Shown: positions 4,159-17,503 of the stretch, in pieces
Layout of the letters: each line of letters begins with the position of its first letter
Position numbering within the stretch: position 1 is the stretch's first letter
Source: Thermus arciformis
Lineage (GTDB): Bacteria > Deinococcota > Deinococci > Deinococcales > Thermaceae
Direction of reading: 5' to 3'
DNA: 50,929 nt
Assembly: GCF_900102145.1 (NCBI RefSeq)
Contig: NZ_FNBC01000017.1
Span: 1 to 50,929, forward strand
The notes under the pieces: generated by a model
Database searches by the model: none
What the model was told of the DNA's origin: nothing
Seen by the model: the letters and a program-made list of their open reading frames with translations, nothing else
Position numbers and translations under genes: made by a program

Positions 4159-5492
4159 AGCACCACCTCCAGGGTCTTAAAGGCCCCCACCGGGGGAAAC
4201 ACCCCGAGAACCAGGAGGAGGGCCAGGAGGAGCCACAGCGCCCACAGGTCAAGCCCTCTGGCCTCGAGGGGTCTTCCCGGACCGAAGCCCATCTGGGTCA
4301 TGGGGCCGAGGAGGCCCACGAAGGCGAGCCCGAGCCCGGCCAGGTAGAGGACGGCCAAGAGGGGAAAGCGCATGGCCGCCTCCACCGCCTTGAACTCGGC
4401 GAAAAAGAGGGGGAAGGGGGGAAGCCCCCCGAGGGCGGCCAGGGCCAGGACGAAGGGCACCCCCAGACCGGGAAGGGAGCGGAAAAGGCCCCCTACCCGC
4501 CCCACCTCCTTGGCGTGGGTGAGGGCCAGGATCCCGCTCGCCCCCAAAAAGGCCAGGGTCTTGGCCAGGGAGTGGGCCAGGGTGTGGAAGAGGGCCAGCC
4601 AGGGCAGGCCCAGCCCCAGGGCGAAGACGGCGAGGCCCATGTGCTCCATGCTGGAGTAGGCCAGAAGGCGCTTGTACTCCTTTTGGCCAAAGAGAAAAAG
4701 CCCCGCCGCCAGCAGGCTTAAGAGGCCGAAGGCGATGAGGAGGCCGGAGGCAAAGGGGAAAAGCCCCGCCGCCTGGGCCAAGGCGGTGTAGCGCAGGAGG
4801 GCGTAGAAGGCCACGTTGAGGAGGGTGCCGGAAAGCAGGGCCGAGGCCGGCCCCGGGGCCTCCGCATGGGCGTCGGGAAGCCAGGCTTGCAGGGGGAAGA
4901 GGCCCACCTTGGTGCCGAAGCCCACCAGGAGGAGGGCAAAGGCCAGCTTAAGGCCCTCCGGGTTGGCCCCCTTTACCAAGGCCCGGGCCTCCCCCCAGTC
5001 CAGGGTGGCCCCGGAAAGCAGGGCGTAGACCAGGATGACCCCCATGAGCCCCAAGGCGATGCCCACGCTCCCCAGCATGAGGTACTTCCAGGTGGCCTCC
5101 AGGGCCCGGGTCCCCCCCTTGTGGTAGACGAGGAGGGCCGAGGCCAGGGTGGACCCTTCCACGAAGATCCAAAGCACCCCCAGGTTGTGGGCCAGGTAGG
5201 CCCCGTGGGCCGCGAAGAGGAAGAGGGCACCCGCCCAGTAGAAGCGCCAGGCCTCCCCCTCAGGGAAGTAGCCCCGGGCGAACAGGGCGATGAGGGCATA
5301 GAGGAGGTCGGTCAGGAGGAGGTAGAAGAGGCCCACCTCGTCCAGGCGAAAAGGCCCCGCCACCTGCCCCAGGAGGAAAGGGGCCAAGGCCGCCGAGAAA
5401 AGGGGCGCCAGAAGGGAAAGCCGCACCAAGGCGTCCCGCTCCCGTCGCCCCAGGAAGGCCAGGAGGGGAAGGAAAAGAAGAAGCCAAAGCAT
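4146..5492 (-). CDS. HyfF/NuoN-like proton-translocating membrane subunit
   Basis: This 448-residue polytopic protein belongs to the Mrp-antiporter/NuoLMN family (Proton_antipo_M). The key channel residues are kept: Glu112 in FVEGSTLASALLVYH (helix 5), Lys195 in FGTKVGLFPLQAWLP (helix 7) and His209 in the following PDAHAEAP loop. The later segment YKRLLAYSSMEHMGL is typical of the family. It is predicted to move protons across the cytoplasmic membrane when coupled to the peripheral arm. It overlaps the large-subunit gene by 13 bp and starts only 3 bp after the stop of the HyfE-like gene, so the genes are translationally linked. Confidence 0.87.
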   Translation of the reverse strand: MLWLLLFLPLLAFLGRRERDALVRLSLLAPLFSAALAPFLLGQVAGPFRLDEVGLFYLLLTDLLYALIALFARGYFPEGEAWRFYWAGALFLFAAHGAYLAHNLGVLWIFVEGSTLASALLVYHKGGTRALEATWKYLMLGSVGIALGLMGVILVYALLSGATLDWGEARALVKGANPEGLKLAFALLLVGFGTKVGLFPLQAWLPDAHAEAPGPASALLSGTLLNVAFYALLRYTALAQAAGLFPFASGLLIAFGLLSLLAAGLFLFGQKEYKRLLAYSSMEHMGLAVFALGLGLPWLALFHTLAHSLAKTLAFLGASGILALTHAKEVGRVGGLFRSLPGLGVPFVLALAALGGLPPFPLFFAEFKAVEAAMRFPLLAVLYLAGLGLAFVGLLGPMTQMGFGPGRPLEARGLDLWALWLLLALLLVLGVFPPVGAFKTLEVVLWTR

Positions 5493-5495
5493 CCC

Positions 5496-6128
5496 CTACC
5501 CCCTTAGGGCCCGCATGCGGGCCGTGTCCACGTGGCCCATCTCCCCCTTGATGCGGAAGATGAGGACCCCCGCCAGGAACACCGCGGCGAAAGCGTCCAG
5601 CGCCACCCCCAGCTCCACGAAGAGGGGCAGGCCGTGGCTCTCCGAGAGGGCCAGGAGGAAGACCCCGTTCTCCAGGGCCAGGAAGCCCAGCACCTGGCTG
5701 ATGGCCTTCTTGCGGCTCACCATGGAGAGCACCCCCAGGAGGACCAGGGAGAGGGCCACCGGCACCCCTTGGGGCAAGGGCGCCTCGGGCAGGACGAAGA
5801 CCGCCCCCACCCGGAAGGCCAGGCCGGTGAGCAAACCCGCCAGGAGGAGGGAGAGGGAAACCGAGAGGTACCCCTCCACCTCGTGGCTGACCTCGAGGCG
5901 GTCCAGGAGCCAGAAGAGGTACCAGGGGATGGCCACCCCCTTGATGAGGAACAGGGCCAGGCCCGCCAGGAGGAAGTGCACCTCGCCCCGGGCCAACCCG
6001 AAGGAAACCAGGGCCAAGAGCACGTTCTGAAGCGCATAAAGCCTGATGACCGCATCCAGGCTCCTGCGGCTCACCATCAGGAAGCCCGTGGCCAAGACCG
6101 CCAGCACCAAGGTGTTCAGAACCTCCAT
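5496..6128 (-). CDS. HyfE-like membrane subunit (NuoK-related)
   Basis: The protein is 210 residues from the ATG at 6128 (MEVLNTLVLAVLATGF). It has about six predicted membrane helices and the HyfE pattern, with a charged loop WLLDRLEVSHEVEGYLS and a C-terminal half resembling NuoK (VLGFLALENGVFLLAL, with the helix-embedded Glu). The frame is open much further upstream, but that part overlaps the HyfC-like gene and is not related to the family. The start overlaps the end of the HyfC-like gene by 13 bp. In Hyf-type complexes this subunit forms part of the proton-pumping membrane arm. Confidence 0.82.
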   Translation of the reverse strand: MEVLNTLVLAVLATGFLMVSRRSLDAVIRLYALQNVLLALVSFGLARGEVHFLLAGLALFLIKGVAIPWYLFWLLDRLEVSHEVEGYLSVSLSLLLAGLLTGLAFRVGAVFVLPEAPLPQGVPVALSLVLLGVLSMVSRKKAISQVLGFLALENGVFLLALSESHGLPLFVELGVALDAFAAVFLAGVLIFRIKGEMGHVDTARMRALRG

Positions 6129-6970
6129 ACCGCCCCCAAAAGCGCCAGCACCCCGAAGAGGGTGTTGTAGGAAAGAAAATCGGGAAGCCGCAGGTAGCGA
6201 AGCTTCACCCCGAAGGTCTCCAGGTACCCCAAGGCCAGCACCCAGGCCGCGGCCAGCCCCAGGAAGACCAGCACCTTGGGGCCTGGCAGGAGAAGGGCCA
6301 TGAGGCCGACGTAGAACAGCATCTTCACGGAGGCGGCCAGCTCGTACAGGGCCAGCAAAGGCCCCCCGTGGTCCAGGAGCTGGGCCTCGTGGATCATGGT
6401 GAGCTCCAGGTGGGTGGTGGGGTCGTCCACCGGCATCCGCGCCCCCTCCGCCAGAAGGGCCACCGCCAAGGAGGCCAGGACCAGGAGGAGCACCAGGGCG
6501 TTTTGCGGGCCGAGCACCGGGAAGCCCGCCATGCGGAGGCCTTCCCCGGCCAGGGCCGCGGCCCCCAGGGCCATCAGGGTCCCCGGCTCGGCCAAGAGGG
6601 TGACCAGGCCCTCCCGGTAGCTCCCCTGGGCCCCGAAGGCGCTCCCCGTGTCCAAAGCGGAAAGCATCTGGAAAAAGCGGCCCAGGTTGAGGAGGTAGAG
6701 GGCCACCAGAAAGTCCCCGGCGAACCCAGGACCCGGCAGCAGGGGAAGGAGGCTCGCCGCCGCCAGGGCGCCCCCTAAGGCTAAAGCTGGGCCCAGGAGG
6801 AAAACGGGGGTGCTTAGGGTGGGCCTCACCCAGGCCTTCCCCCAAAGCTTAGCCAGGTTCCGGTACTCCAGGAGAGGGCTAGCCCCCCGGCGGTGGGTGA
6901 GCCTGGCCTTCAGCCACTTCACGCTGCCCCCGAAGAGGGGGGCAAGGAGGAGGAGCAAGAACGCCGTCAT
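6116..6970 (-). CDS. HyfC/HycD-like membrane anchor subunit (NuoH-related)
   Basis: This 284-residue protein belongs to the NuoH/HycD family, which anchors the peripheral arm in the membrane. The N-terminal segment VKWLKARLTHRRGASPLLEYRNLAKL resembles the family's RxxARxxxRRGPsxLQPYxDLxKL pattern. The conserved acidic loop LAEGARMPVDDPTTHLELTMIHEA (about 185-208) is intact; in complex I this region lies near the quinone and cluster site. It has about eight predicted helices. It overlaps the HyfB-like gene by 4 bp (ATGA type). Confidence 0.87.
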   Translation of the reverse strand: MTAFLLLLLAPLFGGSVKWLKARLTHRRGASPLLEYRNLAKLWGKAWVRPTLSTPVFLLGPALALGGALAAASLLPLLPGPGFAGDFLVALYLLNLGRFFQMLSALDTGSAFGAQGSYREGLVTLLAEPGTLMALGAAALAGEGLRMAGFPVLGPQNALVLLLVLASLAVALLAEGARMPVDDPTTHLELTMIHEAQLLDHGGPLLALYELAASVKMLFYVGLMALLLPGPKVLVFLGLAAAWVLALGYLETFGVKLRYLRLPDFLSYNTLFGVLALLGAVWRF

Positions 6971-8613
6971 AGGAGCACCACCCCCAGGACCACCACCAGG
7001 GTTAGAAGCTGGAGGAGGAGGTAAAAGTGCAGGCTTCCCGACTGCAGGGTTTGGACCAGGCGCGCGAACCGGGAGTAGGCCTTCCCCAGCTGGCGGTAGA
7101 CCCCCGCCAGGGGCTCTTCCAGCCTCGGCCTCTCCCCCACCTCGAGGCGCAGAAAGGGAAAGAGGCGCAGGGCGGGCTCCGAGAAGCCCAGGCCGTTCGG
7201 CTGCATCCTGGGGCTCAAGCGGGGAAAGCCGCAGTCCCAGGTGCCATAGGCCCGGTGGGGCCTCCGGGCAAGCCAGCGAACCAAGCCCAGGGTCAGGAAG
7301 AGGAGGGGAAAAACCCCCCAGTTGGGGTACACCTCCTGGGCCAAAGGCTTCAAGAAAAAGTCCGGTAGCAGGCTCAAAGCCCCCAGGGGAACCGCCAGCG
7401 CCAAAAGCCCCCCGCGCATCCCCGGGCTAAGCTCCGGGCGCACCTCCGCCCGCGCCGCCCCCAGGAAGGCCAGGCCGAAGAGGCGGACGTAGAAGTAGAG
7501 GGCGAGCGCCCCCACCAAAGCCAAGGCCCCGACGCCCAGAACCAGGAAACCGGAAGCGGCGAAAAGGCCTTGGTACAGGGCCCACTCCGCCACGAAGACC
7601 GCCCCCGGAGGTAGCCCCGCCCCCACCGCCACCCCCAACAGCCAAAGGCTCCCCAGAAAGGGCTCCTGCCGCCAAAGCCCCCCCAAGCGGGAGAGCCGCC
7701 GCTCGGCCAAGGCCCCCGAGCCCAGGAAGAGGAGGCCCTTGAAGAGGGCATGCCCCACCTGGTGCAGGAAGAAGGCCGCCAGGAAGAGGGGGGCCCCCGT
7801 GAGGAAGTACCCCCCCAAGGCGGCCAGCATCAGGCCCAGGTTCTCCACGCTGGAGTACGCCAGGGCCCCCTTCAGGTCCTCCTCCCCCAGCCCCCGCACC
7901 AGGGCGTACACCGCCCCCAGGAACCCGAGCAAGGCCAAGGCCAGGCCCACCCACCCCGGGGGCGGACCGAACCAGGCCTGGGCCTGGTAGAGGCCGTACA
8001 GGCCCAGCTTGGTCATGGCCCCGGAGAGGAGGGCGGAGACCGGGCTGATGGCCACGGGGTGGGCCAAAGGAAGCCAAAGGTGGAAGGGGAAGAGGGCCGC
8101 CTTCACGCCGAAGCCCAGCAGGAGGCCCGCCCAGACCCAGTCCGGGCCCAGGTGCCCCTGGCCCAGGAAGGCCAGGTAAAGCCCGGCCCCCGAGAGCCGG
8201 CTCGCCAGGAAAAAGGCCCTGGCCCCCTCCTGGGCCTTAGGCCCTTCCAGGGCCACCAGGAGGTAGCCCAAAAGGGCCATCCCCTCCCAAAGGAAGAGGA
8301 AGGCGAACCCCGGGGGCGCCAGGGAAACCCCGGCCATGGCCAGGAGGAAAAGGGGCACGATCCCGGCGTAGGCCCTGGCCTCCTTGGGGTGGTGGGCCAG
8401 GTAGTCCGGGAGGTAGGGGGCAAGGCCGAGGGTCAAAAGCCCCAAGAGCATCAGAAAGAAGCCGCTGGCGCTGGCCTCTCCCCCCCACAGGGCCCCGCCC
8501 CCCAGGAGGAACCCCAGGCCGCCCGCCCCCAAGAGCCAGGGGTACGCCCTCCCCCTCCCCGCCAAGGCGGAGGCCCCCACGAGGAGGAAGGCGGCCAGGA
8601 GGGGCCAGCTCAC
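6967..8613 (-). CDS. HyfB/NuoL-like proton-translocating membrane subunit
   Basis: This 548-residue polytopic antiporter-like subunit keeps Glu110 in FLFLWEGMALLGYLLV, Lys171 in LGFGVKAALFPFHLWLP, His185 and Lys202, as in active proton channels. The C-terminal part contains the HyfB signature YGTWDCGFPRLSPRMQPNGL and ends with a hydrophobic helix. No long NuoL-type lateral helix is evident. It is the first structural gene of the operon, overlapping the stop of the ArsR-type gene by 4 bp. Together with the HyfF-like protein it gives two candidate pumping modules. Confidence 0.87.
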   Translation of the reverse strand: MSWPLLAAFLLVGASALAGRGRAYPWLLGAGGLGFLLGGGALWGGEASASGFFLMLLGLLTLGLAPYLPDYLAHHPKEARAYAGIVPLFLLAMAGVSLAPPGFAFLFLWEGMALLGYLLVALEGPKAQEGARAFFLASRLSGAGLYLAFLGQGHLGPDWVWAGLLLGFGVKAALFPFHLWLPLAHPVAISPVSALLSGAMTKLGLYGLYQAQAWFGPPPGWVGLALALLGFLGAVYALVRGLGEEDLKGALAYSSVENLGLMLAALGGYFLTGAPLFLAAFFLHQVGHALFKGLLFLGSGALAERRLSRLGGLWRQEPFLGSLWLLGVAVGAGLPPGAVFVAEWALYQGLFAASGFLVLGVGALALVGALALYFYVRLFGLAFLGAARAEVRPELSPGMRGGLLALAVPLGALSLLPDFFLKPLAQEVYPNWGVFPLLFLTLGLVRWLARRPHRAYGTWDCGFPRLSPRMQPNGLGFSEPALRLFPFLRLEVGERPRLEEPLAGVYRQLGKAYSRFARLVQTLQSGSLHFYLLLQLLTLVVVLGVVLL

Positions 8614-9046: not shown

Positions 9047-9907
9047 ATGGCCCCCCTCCGCTACGCCCTCCGCTACACGGCCCAAGGCCTCGAGGAGGTC
9101 CTCCTCCCCCTGCCCCAAACCCTCCCGGGGCAGGAGGTGGGGGAGGTCTCCCTCTCCCATAAGCCCCTGGAGGTCTACGAGGCCCAAGGCAACCTCCTCG
9201 CCCGCTTCGCCCTGGAGGAAGGGGAGGCCTTGGAGGTCCGCTTCCGCCTCCGCACCACCCCCCTTCAGGCCAAGCCCTCTTGGCGGGAGGCCCTCCTCCG
9301 GGAACCCCCGGAGGCCTGGCCCGGGATCCTGGCCCACCGGGGCCACCGGGTGGAAAGGGCTCTGGGCTTCCTTCTCTCCGGCAGGCCCCATGCCTGGTTT
9401 CTGGTGGACGGCCTTCCCCTAGACCCTCTCCTCTTCCAGGCCCTCGGGGAAAACCCCGCCCTCCTCCTTCCCCTAGGGGTAGCCCCCGACCCCAGGGGCT
9501 ACCTAGGAGGGCACGAGGGGAAAAGGCTCCTCCTCTTCAAAACCCCCTGGCCCGGGGAAGAGGAACCCCTCCGGCAGAGCCTCCGGCCCCTGGGCCTGGA
9601 CCCCTTGCCCGCCCTGCGCGGTCTCGCCTTGGCCAGCCTGGGGCTTTCCGCGCTGGGCCTGGCCACCGGACCCTGGCCTTATCTCCCCTACCTGGGCCTT
9701 CTCGCCTTCAGGCAAGGGCCAGCCCTAAAAGACCTCTTCAGGCGAAGCCCCCGCCACGCCCTGGAAAGCCTCCTCTTCCACGCCTTCGCCCTTTCCGTGA
9801 CCACAGACCCCAGGCCGGAGCTCGGCCTGGGGTACCTGGGCCTTTTCTTCTGGAATCGGCTTAGGCCTTTTTCCTCAGCTCCTCGAGGATCTCCCGAAGA
9901 AGCTTGA
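9047..9907 (+). CDS. Protein of unknown function, 286 residues
   Basis: I do not recognise this protein. The N-terminal half (APLRYALRYTAQGLEE..., about residues 1-180) is soluble-looking and rich in Leu, Glu and Pro. The C-terminal third has hydrophobic segments (GLALASLGLSALGLA and WPYLPYLGLLAF, about 195-230) that could be one or two membrane helices. A GTG at 9017 would add ten residues. I prefer the ATG at 9047, because TATCAT at 9021-9026 may be a -10 box. It is divergent from the ArsR-type regulator and its end overlaps the end of mscL by 47 bp. Confidence 0.65.
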   Translation: MAPLRYALRYTAQGLEEVLLPLPQTLPGQEVGEVSLSHKPLEVYEAQGNLLARFALEEGEALEVRFRLRTTPLQAKPSWREALLREPPEAWPGILAHRGHRVERALGFLLSGRPHAWFLVDGLPLDPLLFQALGENPALLLPLGVAPDPRGYLGGHEGKRLLLFKTPWPGEEEPLRQSLRPLGLDPLPALRGLALASLGLSALGLATGPWPYLPYLGLLAFRQGPALKDLFRRSPRHALESLLFHAFALSVTTDPRPELGLGYLGLFFWNRLRPFSSAPRGSPEEA

Positions 9908-10241
9908 CCTCCTCAGGGGGCTCAGGAGGCGCAGAAGGAGCCTCCTCGGCCTTTTTCTGCAGGCGGCTCTGCATGGTCTGCATGGGAACCACCACCAGGA
10001 AATACACCGCCGTGCCCACGATCAGGAAGTTGATCAAGGCGTTTAAGAATTTGCCCAAGGCGATGGGCCCCAGCTTGATGCTGGAAAAGTCCGGAGCCCC
10101 TCCAAGGGCGCCGATGAGGGGTGTGATGACGTCCGCCACCAGGCTATTCACCACCTGGTTGAAAGCGGTGCCCACCACCACGGCCACCGCCAAATCCACC
10201 ACGTTCCCCCGCATCAAAAAGTCGCGCAACCCCTTCAACAT
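9861..10241 (-). CDS. mscL: Large-conductance mechanosensitive channel MscL
   Basis: This 126-residue MscL opens under membrane tension and releases solutes during osmotic downshock. It has the N-terminal amphipathic helix MLKGLRDFLMRGNVVDLAVAVVVG, first transmembrane helix, a short periplasmic loop and second helix (FLNALINFLIVGTAVYFLVV), then a cytoplasmic helix ending in KLLREILEELRKK. The ATG at 10241 is preceded by a GGAGG; the frame is open to 10319 but family members begin at MLKG. It is convergent with the preceding unknown gene, with a 47-bp overlap of coding ends. Confidence 0.93.
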   Translation of the reverse strand: MLKGLRDFLMRGNVVDLAVAVVVGTAFNQVVNSLVADVITPLIGALGGAPDFSSIKLGPIALGKFLNALINFLIVGTAVYFLVVVPMQTMQSRLQKKAEEAPSAPPEPPEEVKLLREILEELRKKA

Positions 10242-10320
10242 AAGTTGACCTCCTTCACTGGAAAAACTGAACCCTAAACCGGGCAAGCTCAACCTAGCAA
10301 AACCCAAAAGAAAAATCAAG

Positions 10321-10366
10321 TGGCGGGCCCGGAGGGATTCGAACCCCCGACCTACCGCTTAGAAGG
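10321..10366 (-). repeat. attL: 46-bp copy of the tRNA-Arg(TCT) 3' end
   Basis: These 46 bp are identical to 17218-17263, the 3' half of the intact tRNA-Arg(TCT) gene including the CCA. Homology stops abruptly on both sides (G versus C before it, A versus C after it). This is the displaced host end left by site-specific integration. Confidence 0.9.
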
Positions 10367-10410
10367 AGGCGAAGGGCCATAACTTAGGCTAACCTAGAGT
10401 TGACGAAATG

Positions 10411-10425
10411 CCCGTTCTGAACGGG
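10411..10425 (+). repeat. Short hairpin CCCGTT-CTG-AACGGG
   Basis: A 6-bp perfect stem with a CTG loop is followed by GGTTTTGG. It lies between attL and the arm-type repeats. It could be a weak terminator or a protein-binding site; the sequence alone does not decide. Confidence 0.4.
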
Positions 10426-10464
10426 GGTTTTGGCCGATAGCATAACCCTGGATTACTTCCGGTT

Positions 10465-10508
10465 AGGGGTCAGTTTTGGGGGTCAATGGGGGTCAGGTTT
10501 GGGGGTCA
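10465..10508 (+). repeat. Left cluster of (A/G)GGGGTCA repeats (arm-type sites)
   Basis: There are four copies: 10465-10472 (AGGGGTCA) and GGGGGTCA at 10478-10485, 10488-10495 and 10501-10508. Start-to-start steps are 13, 10 and 13 bp. Matching copies occur just inside the right end (17080-17168). Such end-specific repeats fit integrase or excisionase arm sites. Confidence 0.7.
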
Positions 10509-10523
10509 ACCCGTGAAGCCATT

Positions 10524-10560
10524 CCACGAAAAGAACCCTTTGTAAGAAAGGGTTTCGTGG
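10524..10560. repeat. Inverted repeat CCACGAAA ... TTTCGTGG
   Basis: An 8-bp perfect outer stem (10524-10531 with 10553-10560) has an inner CCCTT/AAGGG pairing. It lies upstream of the first element gene. It may be a terminator or an operator. Confidence 0.5.
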
Positions 10561-10575
10561 GGTGATGCCAGGGTG

Positions 10576-10604
10576 TTGCGAGTGCAGAGGAGGTATGCTA
10601 TCCT
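10576..10604 (+). promoter_or_regulatory. Promoter TTGCGA-N17-TATCCT for the first element gene
   Basis: The -35 box TTGCGA (10576-10581) is separated by exactly 17 bp from the -10 box TATCCT (10599-10604). The ATG at 10614 lies 9 bases after the -10 box, so the transcript should be leaderless or nearly so. The GAGGAGG at 10587-10593 lies upstream of the expected transcript start and so is not a ribosome site here. Confidence 0.65.
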
Positions 10605-10613
10605 ACGGCCAAG

Positions 10614-11252
10614 ATGCAAGAAGCTCTCACGGCCAAGCTACAGCACTTCGCCCAAAGCGAAGCCGTGAGGAGCCTTCAGGCCGTTGTTGACGGCCTTCAG
10701 ACCGCCACCTGGACCCTTCCCCAGGTCCCCCAGGAAACCTTAAGGAACCTTAACGAGGCGGTGGAAACCGCTAGGAGGACTCTACGCCAGACGTTTGAGG
10801 CGGTGGCCCCCCTGGCCGAAGCGGCGGGGGCTGTAATCAAAAGCCTGCAAGATGCGCGGGATAACCTTCTTGGGGCGTTAAGACCCCTGTGGGACTACTT
10901 CGCTTTAGTGAAGCGGCACCTTGCCCAAGGTGCTTTCTTCAGGGGTAGGGTCGCCAAGCGCGGGAGGGTGCGGCTTCGCTTCCGGAGGTTGGCCCATGAG
11001 CGGGTGCTTAAACTCTTTTTCGTTTACCTGCTGAGGTTAAGGCGCGGGAGGAGCCTTAGCGAAGCGCTTAAAATGGCGCTTAAAGCCCTGACCGCGCTCC
11101 TTGCCTTGGCCCTAGACCTCATCCGCCTGACTCACGAACCCCAGAAGACCCTTCCCGAAAGCCTCAAGGAAAGGCCACCCCCTAAAGACCCCACGCAAAA
11201 CCTGACCAAAAGTTTGGTCATCGCCCCCGTTGCCCCGCCCCTGGCGGCCTAA
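10614..11252 (+). CDS. Unknown element protein with coiled coil, basic and hydrophobic parts
   Basis: I do not recognise this 212-residue protein. Residues 1-105 are helical and heptad-rich (ETLRNLNEAVETARRTLRQTF). Residues 105-125 are strongly basic (FFRGRVAKRGRVRLRFRR). Two hydrophobic amphipathic helices follow (VLKLFFVYLLRL, ALTALLALALDLIRL) and then a Pro-rich tail. Codon use is less extreme at third positions than in the chromosomal genes, with more T- and A-ending codons. It has its own promoter, unlike the replication genes, and is the only candidate cargo or maintenance gene at this end. Confidence 0.65.
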   Translation: MQEALTAKLQHFAQSEAVRSLQAVVDGLQTATWTLPQVPQETLRNLNEAVETARRTLRQTFEAVAPLAEAAGAVIKSLQDARDNLLGALRPLWDYFALVKRHLAQGAFFRGRVAKRGRVRLRFRRLAHERVLKLFFVYLLRLRRGRSLSEALKMALKALTALLALALDLIRLTHEPQKTLPESLKERPPPKDPTQNLTKSLVIAPVAPPLAA

Positions 11253-11333
11253 GGCCGTAGGCTCACGGCTTTAGGCTTCCAGGCCGCCCAAGAGGGTGCC
11301 CCACCCTTGGGCCGGAAAAGGCGGGGCAAAAAC

Positions 11334-11540
11334 ATGCGGAAGCTTGGCCTTAGCGTTCGCGAAGCGGCTGAAGCCCTTGGAGTCCATACAAACCACGTTT
11401 ATCGGTTGATTTGGCGCGGTGAACTGAAGGCGGCGCGCCTGGGGGGGCGCGTTATCATCCCCCGGCGGGAGCTTGAACGCCTTCTAGGCGGCCCGGTGGA
11501 CCTGGAAGAAGAGGCCCCCGAGGAGGCCCGGGGGCGGTAA
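11334..11540 (+). CDS. Excisionase-like helix-turn-helix protein
   Basis: This 68-residue protein shows the compact HTH_17/excisionase fold: LSVREAAEALGVHTNHVYRLIWRGELKAARLGGRVIIPRRELERLL. The helix-turn-helix is AAEALGVHTNHVYRLI and the wing is KAARLGGRVII. A TTG at 11307 would add nine basic residues; I chose the ATG at 11334. In an integrative element it may direct excision with the integrase or control the replication genes that follow. Confidence 0.8.
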   Translation: MRKLGLSVREAAEALGVHTNHVYRLIWRGELKAARLGGRVIIPRRELERLLGGPVDLEEEAPEEARGR

Positions 11541-11550
11541 GGAGGTGGCC

Positions 11551-11739
11551 ATGCGTGCCGTTGTGGTCATCATAACGCCCGAGGGGGCCAAAGAGGAAAC
11601 CGCCATCTTGCTAGACGCTTTTCAAGCTATCTTCCTGGCCCTTCCCTGGGGGGAGCGCATTGACGCCCGCAAGCGCATTGACCTCCTCATTGATGCGGCC
11701 CTGGCCCAGGAGGAGGAGGTGAGTAATGAGGCCGATTGA
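11551..11739 (+). CDS. Small unknown protein of the replication module
   Basis: This 62-residue protein (MRAVVVIITPEGAKEE...) starts at an ATG 5 bp after AAGGAGG (11539-11545). It is acidic, with a beta-strand-like beginning and a helical end. I recognise no family. It overlaps the primase-polymerase start by 14 bp, so it is probably translated together with it. Confidence 0.65.
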   Translation: MRAVVVIITPEGAKEETAILLDAFQAIFLALPWGERIDARKRIDLLIDAALAQEEEVSNEAD

Positions 11740-12613
11740 GCACGTCCTGGGCTACGCCCGTCTGGGCTACGCCGTCCTTCCCCTCCTCCCCGGGGAGAAG
11801 CGCCCCCACCCCCGGCTGGTGCCCCACGGGCTCAAGGAGGCCTCCCAGGACCCCGCCACCCTCGAGGCCTGGTGGCGGGCCTGCCCCGAGTGTGGGGTGG
11901 GGATTTTGGCCCCGGAGGGGGTCTTGGTCCTTGATGTGGACCAGGGGGAGGCCTGGGAGGCTCTACGCCGGGACTTCCCGGAGCTTGAGGCCGCCCCCCG
12001 GCAGAGGACCCCCAAGGGAGGCCGCCACGTCTTCCTCCGGCTTCCTGAAGGGGTGAGGCTTTCCGCCAGCGTGCGGGCCATCCCCGGGGTGGACCTCCGG
12101 GGCATGGGCCGGGCTTATGTGGTGGCCGCGCCTACCCGGCTGAAGGACGGGAGGGGGTACGCCTGGGAGGCGCCCCTGGTGGGGCCGGAGGAGCTTCCCC
12201 CGGTGCCCCGGGACCTCCTCTTGAAGCTCCTGCCCCCGCCGCCGCCTCCGAGGGAGGTTTGGACCCCGGTGGAAGGGGCTAGCCCTAAGCGCCTGCAGGC
12301 CCTTCTCCAGGCCTACTGCCACCGGGTAGCCCGGGCACCTGAGGGGACGCGGCACCTGACTTTGCTCAGGTACGGCCTGGCCGCCTACGGCCTGGTGGCC
12401 CACGGCCTCTCCCCCGAGGAGGCGGAAGCCGCCCTTCTGGAGGCCGCCCTGGCCTCGGGCCTGCCGGAGAGGGAGGCCCGGGAGGTGTTGCGCTGGGCCC
12501 GGGAGGTGGGGGAGGCCAAGCCTCTCCCCCTGGAGGCCTCCCCTCCTCTTCCTCCCCGCGTGCGCTGGGCCATGAACCGCCGGGCCCGGGTGAAGGGGGT
12601 GGGCCATGAGTGA
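11726..12613 (+). CDS. Bifunctional primase-polymerase (PrimPol) domain protein
   Basis: This 295-residue protein has an archaeo-eukaryotic primase-type PrimPol domain: GYAVLPLLPGEKRPHPRLVPHGLKEASQD near the N-terminus, the catalytic acidic motif GVLVLDVDQGEAWEAL near residue 67, GGRHVFLRLP near residue 98 and VDLRGMGRAYVVAAPT near residue 125. It should prime, and perhaps extend, DNA during element replication. The C-terminal 120 residues are helical (ASPKRLQALLQAYCHRVA...) and resemble primase C-terminal domains. It overlaps the following ATPase gene by 8 bp. Confidence 0.88.
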   Translation: MRPIEHVLGYARLGYAVLPLLPGEKRPHPRLVPHGLKEASQDPATLEAWWRACPECGVGILAPEGVLVLDVDQGEAWEALRRDFPELEAAPRQRTPKGGRHVFLRLPEGVRLSASVRAIPGVDLRGMGRAYVVAAPTRLKDGRGYAWEAPLVGPEELPPVPRDLLLKLLPPPPPPREVWTPVEGASPKRLQALLQAYCHRVARAPEGTRHLTLLRYGLAAYGLVAHGLSPEEAEAALLEAALASGLPEREAREVLRWAREVGEAKPLPLEASPPLPPRVRWAMNRRARVKGVGHE

Positions 12614-14522
12614 GGCCATCCGCGCCATCGTGGACGCCCTCACCCCGGAGAACTGGGGGCGGGTGCGGAAGGCCCTCTTTGAGGCCCTGGTGGAGGAGGG
12701 CCTGGACTCCGTGGAGGTGGAGGCGGTCCTGAAGGTGGCGGCCCGGAAGGTGGGGGCCACCCTGGAGGCCGTGCGCCAGGCCTGGCGGGACTACCTGGGC
12801 CCGGCCAAGAAGGAGGAGGCCACCGCCGCCAAGACCGCCGTGGACCTGGGCCTGGGGGAGGTGGTGGCCCTCTGGCACACCCCGAGCAAGGAGGCCTGGG
12901 CCACCCTCCCCAGGGACGGGCACGTGGAGCACCATCCCGTGCGGGGGCGGGAGTTTCGCGCCTGGCTTGCCGGGCTTCACTACGCCAAGGAGGGAAAGCC
13001 CCTCTACGCCCAAGCCATGCAGGACGCCCTGGCCGTCCTGGAGGCCAAGGCCCTCTACGAGGGGGAGGAGCACGAGGTGCACACGCGCCTGGCCGGGTGG
13101 GGGGGCAGGGTGTACCTGGACCTGGCCCGCCCGGACTGGCTGGTGGTGGAGGTGGGGCCCGAGGGGTGGCGCGTCATCCCCGCCCACGAGGCCCAGGTGC
13201 GCTTCCGCCGGGGGCGGCACCAGAAGCCCCTGCCCCTACCCGAGCGAGGGGGTAGCCTCGCCCCCCTCCTTGACCTCCTCCCCCTCCAGGAGCGCCGGGA
13301 CGCGGCCCTGGTCCTGGGGTGGCTGGTGGGGGCGCTTTCCCCGAGAGGCCCCTACCCCATCCTGGTCCTGGCCGGGGCCAAGGGGGCGGGGAAGAGCACC
13401 GCCGCCCGGCTCCTCAAGGCCCTGGTGGACCCCCAGGAGGCCCCCTTGCGGGCTGAGCCCAAGGACGTGGAGGCCCTGATGGTGGCGGCCAAGGCGTCCT
13501 GGGTCCTGGCCTACGACAACCTGAGCAAGGTGCCCACCTGGCTATCGGACGCCCTCTGCCGCCTCTCCACCGGAGGCGGGCTGGGCAAGCGGGAGCTTTA
13601 CACGGACTCCGAGGAGCACGTGCTGGAGGCGCAAAGGCCCGTCATCCTCACCGGGATAGGCTTCGGCCTCCTCCGGGACGACCTGGCCGACCGGGTGATG
13701 ATGGTCAACCTGGAGCGCTTGGAGGACGGGGCCCGGAGGCCTGAGCGGGAGCTTTGGGCGGCCTTTGAGCAGGCCCACCCCAAGGTCCTGGGTGCCCTCT
13801 TGGACGCCGTGGCCCTGGCCCTGAGGCGGTGGGAGGAGGTGCGGGCCGCCATGCCCTCCTTGCCCCGCCTGGCGGACTGGGCCATCTGGGCGGAGGCCGC
13901 CGCCCCCGCCCTGGGCCTCGAGGCCGGGGAAGTGGTGCAAGCCTTCTACGCGGTGCAGGCCGGGCTCAACCAGGACCTGCTGGACAACGACCCCGTGGCC
14001 CAGGCCATCCTCCTCCTCACCGCCGACTGGCCCGAGGGGCACCGGGCCGTCTACACCGCAAGCGAACTCCTCGCCGCCCTGGAGGGGGCCATGGGCCTCA
14101 AGGAGGCCCGGGTGAAGCCCGAGGGGTGGCCCCGCACCCCCGCCGGGCTGGGGAAGCACCTGCCCCGGGTGCAGACCGCCCTCCGGGGGGTGGGGGTCAA
14201 GGTGGAGGGGGTGCGGGACGCCCGGGTGAAGCGCCTCCTCTGGGTTTTAGAAAGGAGTGGGGAGCCATCCCCCGCAACCCCCGCAACACCCGCAAACGCC
14301 CTCCAGGACGCTACTCCCGAGCGCGGGAGGTGGGAAGCCCATCCCCCGCAAACCCCCGCCCATCCCCCGCAAACCCCCGCAACCCCCGCACATCCCCCGC
14401 GCGTGCTAAACGGCACCAGGACGCCGTTTGCGGGGGATGCGGGGGATGCGGGAGGTGTTGCCCCTCCTCTTTCTAAAACGGCCCGGGGGGAAGAGGAGGA
14501 CGAGGTGGAGGTGGAGCTGTGA
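12606..14522 (+). CDS. Helicase-like P-loop ATPase of the replication module
   Basis: This 638-residue protein has a Walker A motif GAKGAGKST near residue 260 and a following VLAYDNLSKVPTWLSD segment that can serve as Walker B/sensor region (YDN), as in phage and plasmid SF3-like or D5-like helicases. RPVILTGIGFGLLRDDLADRVMMV follows. The first 90 residues are helical. A Pro/Thr/Ala-rich linker (about 550-610) is encoded by CCCCCGCAA-type DNA repeats and ends in an acidic tail. With the upstream PrimPol it forms a primase-helicase pair. The next gene starts at an overlapping GTGA. Confidence 0.8.
   Translation: MSEAIRAIVDALTPENWGRVRKALFEALVEEGLDSVEVEAVLKVAARKVGATLEAVRQAWRDYLGPAKKEEATAAKTAVDLGLGEVVALWHTPSKEAWATLPRDGHVEHHPVRGREFRAWLAGLHYAKEGKPLYAQAMQDALAVLEAKALYEGEEHEVHTRLAGWGGRVYLDLARPDWLVVEVGPEGWRVIPAHEAQVRFRRGRHQKPLPLPERGGSLAPLLDLLPLQERRDAALVLGWLVGALSPRGPYPILVLAGAKGAGKSTAARLLKALVDPQEAPLRAEPKDVEALMVAAKASWVLAYDNLSKVPTWLSDALCRLSTGGGLGKRELYTDSEEHVLEAQRPVILTGIGFGLLRDDLADRVMMVNLERLEDGARRPERELWAAFEQAHPKVLGALLDAVALALRRWEEVRAAMPSLPRLADWAIWAEAAAPALGLEAGEVVQAFYAVQAGLNQDLLDNDPVAQAILLLTADWPEGHRAVYTASELLAALEGAMGLKEARVKPEGWPRTPAGLGKHLPRVQTALRGVGVKVEGVRDARVKRLLWVLERSGEPSPATPATPANALQDATPERGRWEAHPPQTPAHPPQTPATPAHPPRVLNGTRTPFAGDAGDAGGVAPPLSKTARGEEEDEVEVEL
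14265..14455. repeat. CCCCCGCAA / ATCCCCCGC repeats with inverted copy: candidate origin
   Basis: Within the ATPase gene, CCCCGCAA-type units recur (14268-14300 and 14340-14402), several as CATCCCCCGC. The opposite orientation GCGGGGGATG appears twice after 14427. Between them is a perfect inverted repeat AAACGGC / GCCGTTT (14407-14413 with 14422-14428). The block can form a large cruciform and resembles an iteron array. Confidence 0.55.
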
Positions 14523-14854
14523 GCCCCTGGCGGAAGCTCATCACCCTGGCCCCGGACCTCGCGGCCAAGGTGCGCGCCATGCGCCCGCCTAAGGTCCGGG
14601 TGGTGGCCGATGGCCGGGTGCTCTACTGGGCTCTGGCCATGCCGGAGGAGGAGGACCTGGAGGCCCACGCCGCCTGGCCTGGGCAGAACGCCCCGAGCCT
14701 CGAGGCCTGGCTGGTGGAGCGGTTGAGCTTCCTGGAGGAGGCCTGGCCGGAAGCCCAGGAGGTGGAGCTTCTGGGAGTTTGGGCCGGGAACCCGCCCCGG
14801 CTTGAGCCCATCGCCCGGGCCCGGGTGAAGCGGCGTGAGGAGGTGGGGGCGTAA
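14519..14854 (+). CDS. Unknown element protein, 111 residues
   Basis: I do not recognise this protein (SPWRKLITLAPDLAAKVRAM...). It starts at a GTG overlapping the ATPase stop (GTGA), so it is translationally coupled. The sequence alternates beta-like (KVRVVADGRVLYWALAM) and helical acidic segments (LERLSFLEEAWPEAQEVE type). It may form an antiparallel sheet. No signal peptide or membrane helix is seen. Confidence 0.65.
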   Translation: MSPWRKLITLAPDLAAKVRAMRPPKVRVVADGRVLYWALAMPEEEDLEAHAAWPGQNAPSLEAWLVERLSFLEEAWPEAQEVELLGVWAGNPPRLEPIARARVKRREEVGA

Positions 14855-14879
14855 GCCCGTTCGGCATGGGGGTTAGACG

Positions 14880-15449
14880 ATGATGGAGGAAATCAGGGAC
14901 TTGGACCTGGCGCTTAGGGCCGCCCTCGGGGCGGGAAGGCGCGGCCCTCTCCCCGGGCTGGGGAGGGGACCGGGAAGGCCCTGGGAGGGGATTGCCGAAC
15001 GAACCCCCCAAGTCTGGGCCGTGTGGCTTTCGGAGTGGTGGCGGATGAAGACGGGCCGCCCCCTCCCCGAGAGGCCGCCCGTTTGCTTGACCTTCGGGGA
15101 GCAGGTGGTGCGCCTTGTCGGCGTGGAGCGCCGCTTCGGCCACGAGTGGCAGTTCGTCTGCCCCGGGTGTGGGGGGAAGCGCCGGGTGCTCTACCTGGTC
15201 CGCCGGGGGCTCCTCTGCAGGAAGTGCGCCCGCCTGGGCTATCTCTCGCAGGCTAGGAGAGGGGGGAAGGACCGGGCCCTGGACCTGGGCCTGCCCCTGT
15301 GGGGGAGGTACGCCCTCCGGGCCTTCCCCGAGGCCCTGGCCGAGGACCTGGGCAAAGACTTCCGCAAGGCGCTGGAAGCCCTCTTCTCCGGGCTCAAGCT
15401 CAAGGAGGTGGAAGATGAGGAAGGCGAAGGCGAAGCCGAAGTGGACTGA
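14880..15449 (+). CDS. Zinc-ribbon protein of unknown function
   Basis: This 189-residue protein contains a zinc-ribbon pattern CPGCGGKRRVLYLVRRGLLCRKC (two CxxC knuckles 16 residues apart, about residues 98-119). A region VWLSEWWRMKTGRPLPERP precedes it and an acidic tail follows. Such proteins are common in phage and plasmid modules and may bind nucleic acid, but no function is assigned. Two ATGs (14880, 14883) are adjacent; the first is used. Its 3' end overlaps the start of the broken gene that follows. Confidence 0.65.
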   Translation: MMEEIRDLDLALRAALGAGRRGPLPGLGRGPGRPWEGIAERTPQVWAVWLSEWWRMKTGRPLPERPPVCLTFGEQVVRLVGVERRFGHEWQFVCPGCGGKRRVLYLVRRGLLCRKCARLGYLSQARRGGKDRALDLGLPLWGRYALRAFPEALAEDLGKDFRKALEALFSGLKLKEVEDEEGEGEAEVD

Positions 15450-15696
15450 GCGGTACGAGGCCGCCCGCGCCCGGTGGGAGGAGGCCGAGGCCTAGCGCAC
15501 GCGCCTGGCCGGGCTTGGGGGCAAGGCCGTGGCGGTCCTGGAGAAGGCCCTGGAGGAGGCGGAAGGCCTCAACCCGGAGCACAAGGCCCGGGTGGCCGCC
15601 CTGGCCCTCAAGCTGGCCCTGGCCGCCGCGCCGAAGGCGGAGCCCCATCCCCTCTCCTTCACCGCGGCGGAGTGGCCCTTGGACGAGGAGGGGTAG
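15415..15696 (+). pseudogene. Small helical protein interrupted by an in-frame TAG
   Basis: A frame from ATG 15415 reads 26 residues (MRKAKAKPKWTERYEAARAR...) to a TAG at 15493-15495. The same frame then continues without break for 66 more codons (RTRLAGLGGKAVAVLEKALE..., ending LSFTAAEWPLDEEG) to a TAG at 15694-15696. The helical, Ala/Glu/Lys-rich character is continuous across the stop, and CAG-to-TAG would be a single change. It is either a recent nonsense mutation or readthrough. A separate downstream start (GTG 15529) is the alternative. Confidence 0.6.
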
Positions 15697-15736
15697 CCCT
15701 CTTTGGAAAACGGCAGGGCTAGAAAGCCCCAGAACC

Positions 15737-15779
15737 TTCCCCACACGAGGGGGAGGAGCCTTCCCCTCAGCGTGGGGAA
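15737..15779. repeat. Nested stem-loop TTCCCCAC ... GTGGGGAA
   Basis: The outer stem is TTCCCCAC (15737-15744) with GTGGGGAA (15772-15779); an inner GAGGGG/CCCCTC stem lies inside. It follows the broken gene and may terminate the element's main transcript, although it is followed by only a short A/T stretch. Confidence 0.5.
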
Positions 15780-15855
15780 AATGGCGCAAACTTTCGCCGG
15801 GAAAAACCCGGGGGCGAACCCCCAGGCTACTCCCCCTTCGCGTCATGGGTTGACG

Positions 15856-15899
15856 GGTTGCCCCCGGCAACCTTCGCGAAACAAAACTTTCGCGAAGGT
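15856..15899. repeat. Overlapping inverted repeats upstream of the integrase gene
   Basis: GGTTGCC-CCC-GGCAACC (15856-15872) is followed by the perfect 12-bp inverted repeat ACCTTCGCGAAA / TTTCGCGAAGGT (15870-15881 with 15888-15899). They share bases 15870-15872, so the two hairpins exclude each other. They lie 44 bp before the integrase start and are good candidates for regulatory sites. Confidence 0.6.
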
Positions 15900-15942
15900 C
15901 AACCCCTTGCCCCCCTGTGGCAACGCCAGGTTAGCATGGGGT

Positions 15943-17082
15943 ATGCCGCGCAAAGGACTCAAGGCCCGCAAGCGTAAGGATGGGCGCTGGGAGGTGCGCC
16001 CTTACCTCCGGGAGCCCGATGGGCGGTATAGGCGGGTGAGCGTCTTCGGCAAGACCGCCGAGGAGGCCCTGCGCAAGGCCCGGGAGCTTGTGGCCCAGCA
16101 CGAGAAGGGCCTGCTTCCCACCAGGGACGCCACTACCCTGGCCACCTTCGCGGAAAAGTGGCTTGCCCGCAAGCGGGCTACCCTGGCCCCCAAGACCTTC
16201 ATCAACTACCAGCGGGAGGTGGGCTATCTCCTCACCTACCTGGGCCACATGCGGCTCCAGGCCATCAAGCCTGCCGATGTCCGGGAGGCCTTGGACCGCA
16301 TGGCCGCCCAGGGCCTAGGCCCGAGGGCCATCCGCAAGGCGCTTACCCACTTGCGGGCCCTCTTCAAGGAGGCCCTGGCCCTGGAAATCGTCCACCGGGA
16401 CCCTACGGCCTCCATCCGCCTTCAGGCCCCCACGCGCCGCACCGCCGGGAGGACCCTGGAGCCTCACGAGGTGGCCGCCCTCCTCAAGGCCCTGGACGCT
16501 TGGCCCACCTGGGAGGTGGGCACGGCCCTGCGCCTGTGCCTGGCGGTGGGCCTCCGGCCTGGGGAGGCCCTTGGGCTCAAGTGGGGGGACGTGGACTTCG
16601 AGGCGGGCACCCTGGCCGTGCGCCGGGCCTGGACCAACCTCAAAGGGAGGGGGGTACTCACCACCCCCAAGACCCCCTCCAGCCTGCGCACCATCCCCGT
16701 CCCCCCCAAGACCCTGGAGCGCCTTCGGGCCCGGTGGGGGGCCCTGGTGGAAGCGGGAGTGGACCCCCTGGACCTTCGGGAAGCCTGGGTGTTCCCGAGC
16801 GCCAAGGACCCCTCCCAGCCCCTCAACCCCCACAGCCTGGCCCACGCCCTCCGAAAGATTGTGGCCAGGTTGGGGCTACCCCCCATCCGCCCCCACGACC
16901 TTCGGCACACCTACGCTTCCCTGCTCCTGGCGGAGGGGGCCCCTCCGGAAGTGGTGGCGGGCCGCCTAGGGCACGCGCGGCCCTCCATCACCCTGGATAT
17001 CTACCGCCACCTGCTGGCCAGGGAGAAGGAGGCGTGGACCTTTGACCCCGAGGACCTGGTGGCCCCCAACCCCCAGGCCTGA
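15943..17082 (+). CDS. Tyrosine recombinase (integrase)
   Basis: This 379-residue phage-type integrase has an N-terminal arm-binding domain (GRWEVRPYLREPDGRYRRVSVFGKT), a SAM-like core-binding domain (LATFAEKWLARKRATLAPKTF) and a catalytic domain. The catalytic residues are all readable: Arg in GLRPGEALGLKWGDV, Lys in TTPKTPSSLRTIPV, HxxR in PHDLRHTYASLLL, His in RLGHARPSI and the nucleophile Tyr in TLDIYRHLL. It should recombine the 46-bp tRNA core. The ATG at 15943 begins the conserved basic N-terminus. The gene lies next to attR, as usual for tRNA-targeting elements. Confidence 0.93.
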   Translation: MPRKGLKARKRKDGRWEVRPYLREPDGRYRRVSVFGKTAEEALRKARELVAQHEKGLLPTRDATTLATFAEKWLARKRATLAPKTFINYQREVGYLLTYLGHMRLQAIKPADVREALDRMAAQGLGPRAIRKALTHLRALFKEALALEIVHRDPTASIRLQAPTRRTAGRTLEPHEVAALLKALDAWPTWEVGTALRLCLAVGLRPGEALGLKWGDVDFEAGTLAVRRAWTNLKGRGVLTTPKTPSSLRTIPVPPKTLERLRARWGALVEAGVDPLDLREAWVFPSAKDPSQPLNPHSLAHALRKIVARLGLPPIRPHDLRHTYASLLLAEGAPPEVVAGRLGHARPSITLDIYRHLLAREKEAWTFDPEDLVAPNPQA

Positions 17083-17168
17083 CCCCCAAAGCTGACCCCC
17101 AAACCGCCCCCGGCCTCGAGGCCGGGGGTGAGGTTTGCCCTCCCTTTGGGGGTCAAGTTTGGGGGTCA
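17080..17168. repeat. Right cluster of GGGGGTCA repeats, two inverted pairs
   Basis: TGACCCCC occurs at 17080-17087 and 17093-17100, and GGGGGTCA at 17148-17155 and 17161-17168. Both pairs are spaced 13 bp and the pairs face each other around the terminator. The unit matches the left-end cluster, supporting a role as integrase/excisionase arm sites. Confidence 0.7.
17107..17128 (+). terminator. Terminator-like palindrome after the integrase
   Basis: A 22-bp perfect palindrome of the form CCCCCGGC-CTCGAG-GCCGGGGG lies 25 bp after the integrase stop. It would give a very strong hairpin but is not followed by a T-run; it may also be part of the attachment complex. Confidence 0.55.
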
Positions 17169-17217
17169 ACCCTGCTACTGCCTTACTTCCGAGTGCGGAA
17201 GATTTGCGTTCTGGAGC

Positions 17218-17263
17218 TGGCGGGCCCGGAGGGATTCGAACCCCCGACCTACCGCTTAGAAGG
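17218..17263 (-). repeat. attR: 46-bp core inside tRNA-Arg
   Basis: This copy of the 46-bp direct repeat covers the CCA end, T-arm, variable loop and anticodon stem-loop of tRNA-Arg(TCT). The element supplies a functional 3' end, so the tRNA gene survives integration. Confidence 0.9.
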
Positions 17264-17293
17264 CGGCTGCTCTGTCCCCTGAGCTACGGGCCC
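17218..17293 (-). tRNA. tRNA-Arg (anticodon TCT)
   Basis: The 76-nt minus-strand cloverleaf has acceptor stem GGGCCCG pairing with CGGGCCC, T-loop TTCGAAT, anticodon loop CTTCTAA and an encoded CCA end. It is the last tRNA of a Pro-Gly-Arg operon and the integration target of the adjacent element. Confidence 0.95.
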
Positions 17294-17326
17294 AAACAGG
17301 GAGCCGGGGCCAAAGCCCCGGCCATT

Positions 17327-17402
17327 TGGAGCGGGAGACGGGACTCGAACCCGCGACCCTCGGCTTGGAAGGCCGATGCTCTACCAACTGAGCTACTCCC
17401 GC
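17327..17402 (-). tRNA. tRNA-Gly (anticodon TCC)
   Basis: The 76-nt minus-strand tRNA has acceptor stem GCGGGAG / CTCCCGC, anticodon loop CTTCCAA, T-loop TTCGAGT and an encoded CCA. It is the middle gene of the tRNA operon. Confidence 0.95.
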
Positions 17403-17403
17403 G

Positions 17404-17480
17404 TGGTCGGGGCGGCCCGATTTGAACGGGCGACCCCCTGCTCCCAAAGCAGGTGCGCTACCGGCCTGCGCTACGCCCCG
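17404..17480 (-). tRNA. tRNA-Pro (anticodon TGG)
   Basis: The 77-nt minus-strand tRNA has acceptor stem CGGGGCG / CGCCCCG, anticodon loop TTTGGGA, T-loop TTCAAAT and an encoded CCA. It is first in the operon, one base from tRNA-Gly. Confidence 0.95.
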
Positions 17481-17503
17481 GAGGCCGTGGCCACCCACAG
17501 GCC

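Follow-up and report, generated by a model that had tools for sequence, protein, structure and literature searches.

Among the mobile elements described in Thermus, the closest to the locus studied here is ICETh2 of strain HB27, which has published relatives in T. aquaticus, T. oshimai, and strain SG0.5JP17-16. These elements are 7.5-12 kb long and are flanked by a ~47-bp repeat at the 3' end of a tRNA gene (PMC7693054). Their Int2-type integrases are 88-97% identical within Thermus and target tRNA-Val, and in HB27, ICETh2 and ICETh1 are mutually dependent for transfer. As for replication, the C-terminal domain of the Rep protein of the Staphylococcus aureus pathogenicity islands (SaPIs) binds iterons located just downstream of its own gene (PMC7581432), the replication loci of the plasmids pFP11 and pWTY27 consist of one or more rep genes and iterons, and pRN1 needs a stem-loop origin just after its primase-polymerase (PrimPol)-helicase gene (PMC4234260). 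Here, we analyzed a 6.9-kb element in a 50,929-nt stretch of the Thermus arciformis contig NZ_FNBC01000017.1 (positions 1 to 50,929, forward strand), hereafter referred to as the window; its genome is listed as G000.

The window element has in common with ICETh2 a PrimPol gene followed by a putative helicase gene, small open reading frames (ORFs) of unknown function, a tyrosine integrase, an excisionase, and the 3' end of a tRNA gene as target. It differs from ICETh2 in its target, tRNA-Arg(TCT), and in its size of 6.9 kb. The integrase is only ~41-43% identical to the tRNA-Val-type integrases of the genomes analyzed, HB27 Int2 itself being compared by description. Since the integrase is not of the Int2 type, we class the element as an ICETh2-type variant and not as ICETh2 proper. 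A second element in the T. arciformis genome occupies tRNA-Val(CAC); it is 7.9 kb long, has a 47-bp repeat, and encodes a helicase, PrimPol, and integrase that are 84%, 75%, and 41% identical to those of the window element, respectively. This second element fits the published description of ICETh2 and is likely orthologous to it. For ICETh2-type elements, PrimPol and helicase are expected to be ≥40% identical to the HB27 proteins, for which the tRNA-Val element serves here as a proxy. The comparison with ICETh2 suggested in a preliminary description of the locus proved apt. The window element is a relative of ICETh2 with a new integrase-target pairing and hence of a known kind. The novelty lies in its joining of a dif-like resolution site with a probable replication origin inside the helicase gene, two features that together argue for a plasmid-like phase.

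Insertion in the 3' end of a tRNA-Arg gene

The element is bounded by a direct repeat with copies at positions 10321-10366 and 17218-17263, spaced 6897 bp apart and identical at 46/46 positions (49/50 over 50 bp), in agreement with the perfect 46-bp repeat in tRNA-Arg(TCT) noted earlier, and it contains nine co-oriented reading frames, all on the forward strand. The right copy is the 3' part of the tRNA-Arg(TCT) gene (17218-17293, reverse strand) and forms the tRNA-side attachment site, while the left copy is the distal attachment site. Because the repeat equals the 3' part of the tRNA, the tRNA gene is intact at the right end of the element. When the flanks were rejoined (window 9861-10320 plus 17218-17500), they gave a continuous 742-bp alignment, with 81% identity, to a natural empty site in another species (G016), where mscL lies directly beside tRNA-Arg, the same neighbor gene as in the window. 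This unbroken alignment establishes that the insertion is real and the repeat not a chance one: the element is inserted in the 3' end of tRNA-Arg(TCT). The empty site, on the existence of which the preliminary description had made its proposal depend, thus occurs at the species level.

The tRNA-Arg locus was surveyed in 27 genomes of the genus Thermus, one per species. A second copy of the attachment site 7-13 kb from tRNA-Arg was also present in G004, G005, and G026. In G018, G021, and G024, an integrase or integrase remnant adjoins tRNA-Arg, with no second attachment site copy in the stretch examined, and 17 other genomes contained neither an integrase nor a second copy in the ~2 kb examined at this gene. 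In the region of mscL and the left element end (window 10001-11000), the guanine-cytosine (GC) fraction drops to 0.58, compared to ~0.69 elsewhere in the window. Thermus phage phiLo carries a tRNA-Arg gene of its own (MH673673.1:21202-21275, locus L119) that matches the attachment site at 96%, making it a possible alternative target or decoy.

The PrimPol-helicase module

The preliminary description had also recognized a plasmid-like replication module, and this is supported here. The PrimPol gene (11726-12613; PF09250, E=4e-31) encodes the archaeo-eukaryotic primase motifs DVD (residues 70-72), GGRH (98-101), and VD (122-123), and its end overlaps the start of the next gene (12606-14522), which encodes a 638-residue P-loop protein. 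The latter is a candidate initiator helicase, similar to SaPI Rep and D5-like AAA+ proteins, with a Walker A motif (257-265), a DN box (304-305), a DR motif (362-363), a winged helix at ~480-550, and a tail predicted to be disordered (558-638). Only generic P-loop models matched it in Pfam, PHROGs, and NCBIfam, and a PDB sequence search with the helicase profile returned only Walker-A matches, mostly ABC transporters. The Walker A motif, DN box, and DR motif are common to the helicases of Thermus, Meiothermus, Methylobacterium, Streptomyces, and a methanogen plasmid. The structural model (predicted local distance difference test score 85) has the SaPI5 primase-helicase 7ola as its nearest fold (Z 20.4), followed by pox E5/D5 (Z 18) and Cch 5dgk (Z 13.5), and its winged-helix-like domain is C-terminal, preceding the tail. 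The PrimPol profile matches ORF904 of pRN1 (E=0.002).

Homologous PrimPol-helicase pairs are found on the free circular Streptomyces theta plasmids pFP11 and pSTS2, where the PrimPol gene lies beside that of a homologous helicase-like protein (34-36% identity) and, as in the window, is accompanied by a dense two-orientation repeat array, located ~0.5-0.6 kb past the helicase stop. The theta plasmid pWTY27, compared by description, has repA, the primase/polymerase gene repB, and an iteron with a long inverted repeat. Unlike the window element, the Streptomyces plasmids are free and have their iterons in non-coding DNA, and pFP11 and pSTS2 carry FtsK-type transfer genes. A fused PrimPol-helicase form is present on an archaeal 12-kb plasmid. 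The pRN1 family of Sulfolobus likewise combines PrimPol-helicase with a winged helix, but in one fused protein, and with a long stem-loop instead of iterons. SaPI Rep/Pri and Cch/Cch2 of the staphylococcal cassette chromosome mec (SCCmec) resemble the window module in helicase fold, primase partner, and iterons at the helicase 3' end, a similarity in the way of working and not of membership. In contrast to SaPI, the window iterons are located inside the reading frame and not downstream of it, the primase is a separate PrimPol, and no packaging or capsid-remodeling genes were found. In the tRNA-Arg element of G026 (L083, G026:C1:1454556-1471000, at 6388-7566), the PrimPol is 79% identical and the helicase is swapped for another P-loop protein.

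An iteron array in the helicase gene as probable origin

The highest repeat density in the whole window is found at the 3' end of the helicase gene, where positions 14269-14454 contain nine forward and three reversed copies of CCCCCGCA (eight exact, four with one mismatch). This array of 9-bp iterons, with the unit CCCCCGCAA, lies in the part of the gene that encodes the last ~80 residues of the helicase, the predicted disordered tail. It is surrounded by a dyad (14244-14479) with 64-nt arms at 14244-14307 and 14416-14479 that are 78% complementary, and a small hairpin, AAACGGC/GCCGTTT (14408-14429), lies between the two iteron orientations. The 236-bp dyad folds at z = -6.3 relative to shuffled sequences. 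We consider this array the probable replication origin of the element.

The layout of the array is kept in relatives while its unit changes: CCCCCGCAA in G004 and in the tRNA-Val element, ACCACCGCA in G010 and Meiothermus rufus, and AATAGCCGCA in G005, and the iteron-encoded residues differ among relatives (TTATTA, IAANAA, PPHPPQ). No such array is present in the more distant helicases of the Thermus genomes G001, G007, and G017. In a metagenomic set of 47 helicase relatives, 18 loci had ≥5 repeat copies, and in 14 of these 18, the densest array was located ≤300 bp from the helicase stop, compared to 1.4 loci expected (P=3e-13). These arrays often lie within the reading frame and in several cases just past the stop.

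Within the Thermaceae, the wing of the winged helix differs together with the iteron unit: VKRLLW is found with CCCCCGCA, TKNLRW with CCACCGCA (Thermus and Meiothermus), TKRHRW with AATAGCCG, and TKTLTW with TCTACCGC. With four classes only, this is a hint from sequence that wing and unit may be matched. G005 contains a second AATAGCCG array (L066, G005:C106:1740000-1756500, at ~4501-4800), 6 kb from the array in the helicase gene and in a short frame resembling a helicase tail, which may be left over from a helicase that was replaced or may be a separate copy of the origin. There may be a broad class of modules of PrimPol with a D5/SaPI-Rep-like helicase, in which the origin lies inside the helicase 3' end, the iterons are read as tripeptides of a disordered tail, and the unit changes with the upstream wing; we judge the case for such a class to be evenly balanced.

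A dif-like site upstream of the integrase gene

A 28-bp dif-like Xer site, CCTTCGCGAAA-CAAAAC-TTTCGCGAAGG (15871-15898), with an 11-6-11 layout, precedes the integrase gene. It forms the end of a structured non-coding stretch (15697-15898, forward strand) that is identical in G004 and 74% alike in G003, where it lies beside another integrase. The generic motif TNCGCGAAA-N6-TTTCGCGNA occurs in 26 of the 27 Thermus genomes, while a reversed control gave almost no matches. Most Thermus genomes have one copy beside an xer-like recombinase gene, usually with the center TGTACC. In all seven near-complete chromosomes, this copy is located at the terminus, 0.476-0.547 of the way round from dnaA (P ~6e-8), and is therefore the probable chromosomal dif of Thermus. 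The T. arciformis chromosomal copy is found at G000:C37:61919-61942, shortly upstream of an xer-like gene. We found no earlier description of a Thermus dif in the literature searched, supplements not included.

Variants with other 6-bp centers were found in elements integrated in tRNA-Arg, tRNA-Val, and tRNA-Ala, mostly upstream of the integrase gene, and on many small contigs that are probably plasmids. The window site thus shares with dif/Xer systems the 28-bp 11-6-11 form and a chromosomal cognate beside an xer-like gene opposite the origin; unlike usual dif sites, it sits in an integrative element that uses a tRNA site for integration. Integration of the element takes place at the tRNA through its own integrase, so the 28-bp site is most likely used to resolve dimers of the circle. 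In G003:C1, dif-like sites occur every 12.2 kb, as if this contig were an assembled concatemer of a small plasmid with two such sites.

The RNA fold of positions 15690-15950 has a z-score of -5.7. Reading this region as a pure RNA gene was set aside, since the part that is conserved best is the dif-like palindrome; the region may still contain a regulatory RNA, and Rfam gave only chance-level matches within the element. The stretch 15580-15897 is almost fully identical in G004, which at first suggested constraint, but 11581-11880 is just as identical to G004, so recent exchange explains part of this identity.

Integrase, excisionase-like protein, and arm-type sites

The integrase gene (15943-17082) encodes a 379-residue tyrosine recombinase (PF00589, E=6e-27; PHROG 1, E=4e-80). 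It is complete, as was proposed earlier: GLRPGEA at 203, HDLRHT at 318, GHARPS at 343, and DIYRHL at 352 carry the catalytic R, HxxR, H, and Y residues. The ATG at 15943 is a more likely start than the TTG at 15703 assigned mechanically, because a frame from the TTG would cross the structured non-coding region and the integrase of the G004 sister element begins at the equivalent ATG. An excisionase-like helix-turn-helix (HTH) protein is encoded at 11307-11540 (HTH_17/TIGR01764, E=7.5e-15/8.4e-13).

Both ends of the element contain clusters of GGGGTCA that are probably arm-type binding sites of the integrase, as their arrangement suggests. At the left end, four forward-strand repeats (10463-10512) are spaced 13-10-13, and at the right end (17080-17169), there are two inverted (17080, 17093) and two direct copies (17149, 17162). 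The window has 21 copies of this motif, nine of them in two end blocks totaling 222 bp (P ~1e-16, for a motif picked after the repeats had been seen). The 13-10-13 spacing is kept in G004 and in a tRNA-Ala element of G008 (L090) with a 65%-identical integrase, and the sites are absent from the tRNA-Val element, which has a different integrase.

Accessory genes and exchange between elements

The five remaining genes had no confident family in the Pfam, PHROGs, and NCBIfam scans. They are orf212 (10614-11252; 73% identical in G004, with a ratio of nonsynonymous to synonymous substitution rates (dN/dS) of 0.45), orf64 (11545-11739; 98% identical in G004), orf111 (14519-14854), the accessory protein with the widest distribution (56-97% in G003, G004, G005, and G026), orf189 (14880-15449; 67-90% in other elements), with a zinc-ribbon-like CPGC...CRKC pattern, and orf55 (15529-15696), which is 100% identical in G004 and in the tRNA-Val element of G003. 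Where synonymous change permits a ratio, dN/dS is 0.23-0.50, including for orf212, orf111, and orf189, while orf64 and orf55 are too conserved for scoring.

The sister element in G004 has all nine genes in the same order in the same tRNA-Arg, with an integrase, helicase, and PrimPol that are 91%, 97%, and 90% identical, respectively. Other relatives share parts only. G010 has the PrimPol-helicase module (72%) near tRNA-Ala, and G005 has the helicase (65%) in a tRNA-Arg element with another integrase. The G003 tRNA-Val element shares orf55, orf111 (97%), orf189 (90%), and PrimPol (67%), with no helicase homologue in the stretch read. This patchwork indicates that integrase, replication, and accessory genes are exchanged between elements. 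A whole-element DNA search of phages and plasmids gave only tRNA-Arg matches and weak partial ones, and integrase relatives in viral contigs are distant (22-33%).

Absence of recognizable transfer and packaging genes

The Pfam, PHROGs, and NCBIfam scans revealed no capsid, conjugation, or packaging family in the element, and PADLOC found no defense family, its sole match being a generic HTH model for the excisionase-like protein; for capsid, conjugation, and defense genes, this agrees with the preliminary description. Relaxase, coupling protein, and secretion or translocation genes were likewise not found in the Pfam and NCBIfam scans, and for this reason, we regard the element as integrative rather than conjugative. 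An ICETh1-type partner was not found in the T. arciformis genome: there was no NurA homologue, and HerA-domain matches were limited to FtsK and a VirB4-like protein. This absence is no proof, since the assembly is an 88-contig draft. Contig C32 carries genes for a VirB4/TraC-like ATPase and a TrbC/VirB2-like pilin (L240, G000:C32:23000-33000, at 3883-7105), part of a possible type IV secretion cluster. The element had been called self-sufficient; this applies to integration and probably to replication but not to transfer, for which nothing resembling an apparatus is present. Four features were not part of the earlier description: the array of iterons, the arm-type sites of the integrase, the dif-like site, and a second, related element in this genome.

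Discussion

We consider it likely that the element is an integrative plasmid without transfer genes of its own, which would excise, replicate from an origin that it carries itself, and resolve multimers via the host Xer system. The integrase, with the HTH protein as excision factor and the GGGGTCA arm sites, would recombine the 46-bp attachment sites and thereby move the element in and out of tRNA-Arg(TCT). In the circular form, the C-terminal winged helix of the helicase would bind the iteron dyad array of 9-bp units that is contained in the 3' end of the helicase gene itself. The helicase would assemble there as a ring and open the DNA, and the PrimPol would prime synthesis. Multimers arising from such plasmid-like replication would be resolved at the 28-bp site by the host Xer recombinase, and movement between cells may rely on outside means, either natural competence or the machinery of another element. 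Several observations weigh against this model. The main one is that deletion of ppol in HB27 kept, and even slightly raised, the circular form of ICETh2, and that replication after excision was low (PMC7693054). In addition, the T. arciformis assembly contains no extrachromosomal contig of the element and a single copy of the 100% helicase, many distant helicase relatives lack a clear array, the G026 element shows none at the position of the swapped helicase, and the iteron part of the helicase gene shows no clearly stronger conservation at synonymous sites than is seen elsewhere.

The HB27 findings could also mean that PrimPol and helicase serve defense or DNA maintenance, by controlling incoming DNA or the balance with AddAB, while the element is copied passively with the chromosome and excises only to move. 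The HB27 ppol mutants keep ICETh2 circles yet take up environmental DNA 100-1000 times better, and they select for loss of addAB (PMC9751324). However, an HB27 helicase mutant had a shifted balance of forms, with more element-free site and less circle after UV, and the initiator-type fold suits replication, as do the free plasmids on which the gene pair is accompanied by an iteron array close by. We therefore find a purely defensive or maintenance role unlikely, and it would not exclude a role in replication, as the two are compatible. A phage satellite of the SaPI or phage-inducible chromosomal island (PICI) type, packaged by a helper phage, would have a similar kit of integrase, excisionase-like HTH protein, primase, and Rep-type helicase with iteron array; SaPI5 is the nearest fold, and an alignment-based scan found many helicase relatives in IMG/VR contigs. 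Yet the Pfam, PHROGs, and NCBIfam families revealed no capsid-size, terminase, or other packaging gene, with cos and pac sites not searched for, the phage records contained no homologous helicase except in Microbacterium phage Zeta1847, over 36% of the length, and single-protein scans of viral contigs with the helicase, PrimPol, and orf189 gave no close relatives. This makes a helper-packaged satellite the least probable of the explanations considered, and very improbable in our view.

The two DNA sites each have a more mundane explanation. The iterons might have no role as origin and simply reflect the coding of a low-complexity Pro/Ala/Thr tail, as GC-rich low-complexity coding sequence readily yields repeats: in the window, 10/300 codon shuffles that preserve the protein reach the observed score, and synonymous change shows no clear drop. 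Against this, only 0-1/300 shuffles of either kind do so for the arrays of G010, G005, and M. rufus, the two orientations and a similar layout recur in relatives with differing units and residues, and the arrays gather at the helicase end in the metagenomic loci, several just past the stop, and beyond the stop on the Streptomyces plasmids. A mere coding artifact is thus rather improbable. As for the 28-bp palindrome, it may act as a transcription terminator or operator for recombinase genes instead of as a recombination site, since it is found upstream of several integrase genes and, at a distance of ~55-90 bp, of many chromosomal xer-like genes, and its perfect 11-bp stem could act in RNA. 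We think this doubtful, because the 11-6-11 spacing is like that of dif, the chromosomal copy lies opposite dnaA in 7/7 genomes, and the center is common to most chromosomes but varied in plasmid and element copies, with variants on many small, probably plasmid, contigs.

The HB27 ppol mutants that keep ICETh2 circles had left open whether the PrimPol-helicase pair replicates Thermus elements, and with a candidate origin and a candidate dimer-resolution site, self-replication becomes directly testable. If the integrative plasmid model is correct, the element would provide a thermophilic replicon of small size, an initiator helicase that is thermostable and whose target is known, and a candidate dif for the genus Thermus. 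An origin embedded in the gene of its initiator would travel and diversify with it as a single unit, inseparable by recombination, and this origin-in-gene design may be common in PrimPol elements far beyond Thermus.

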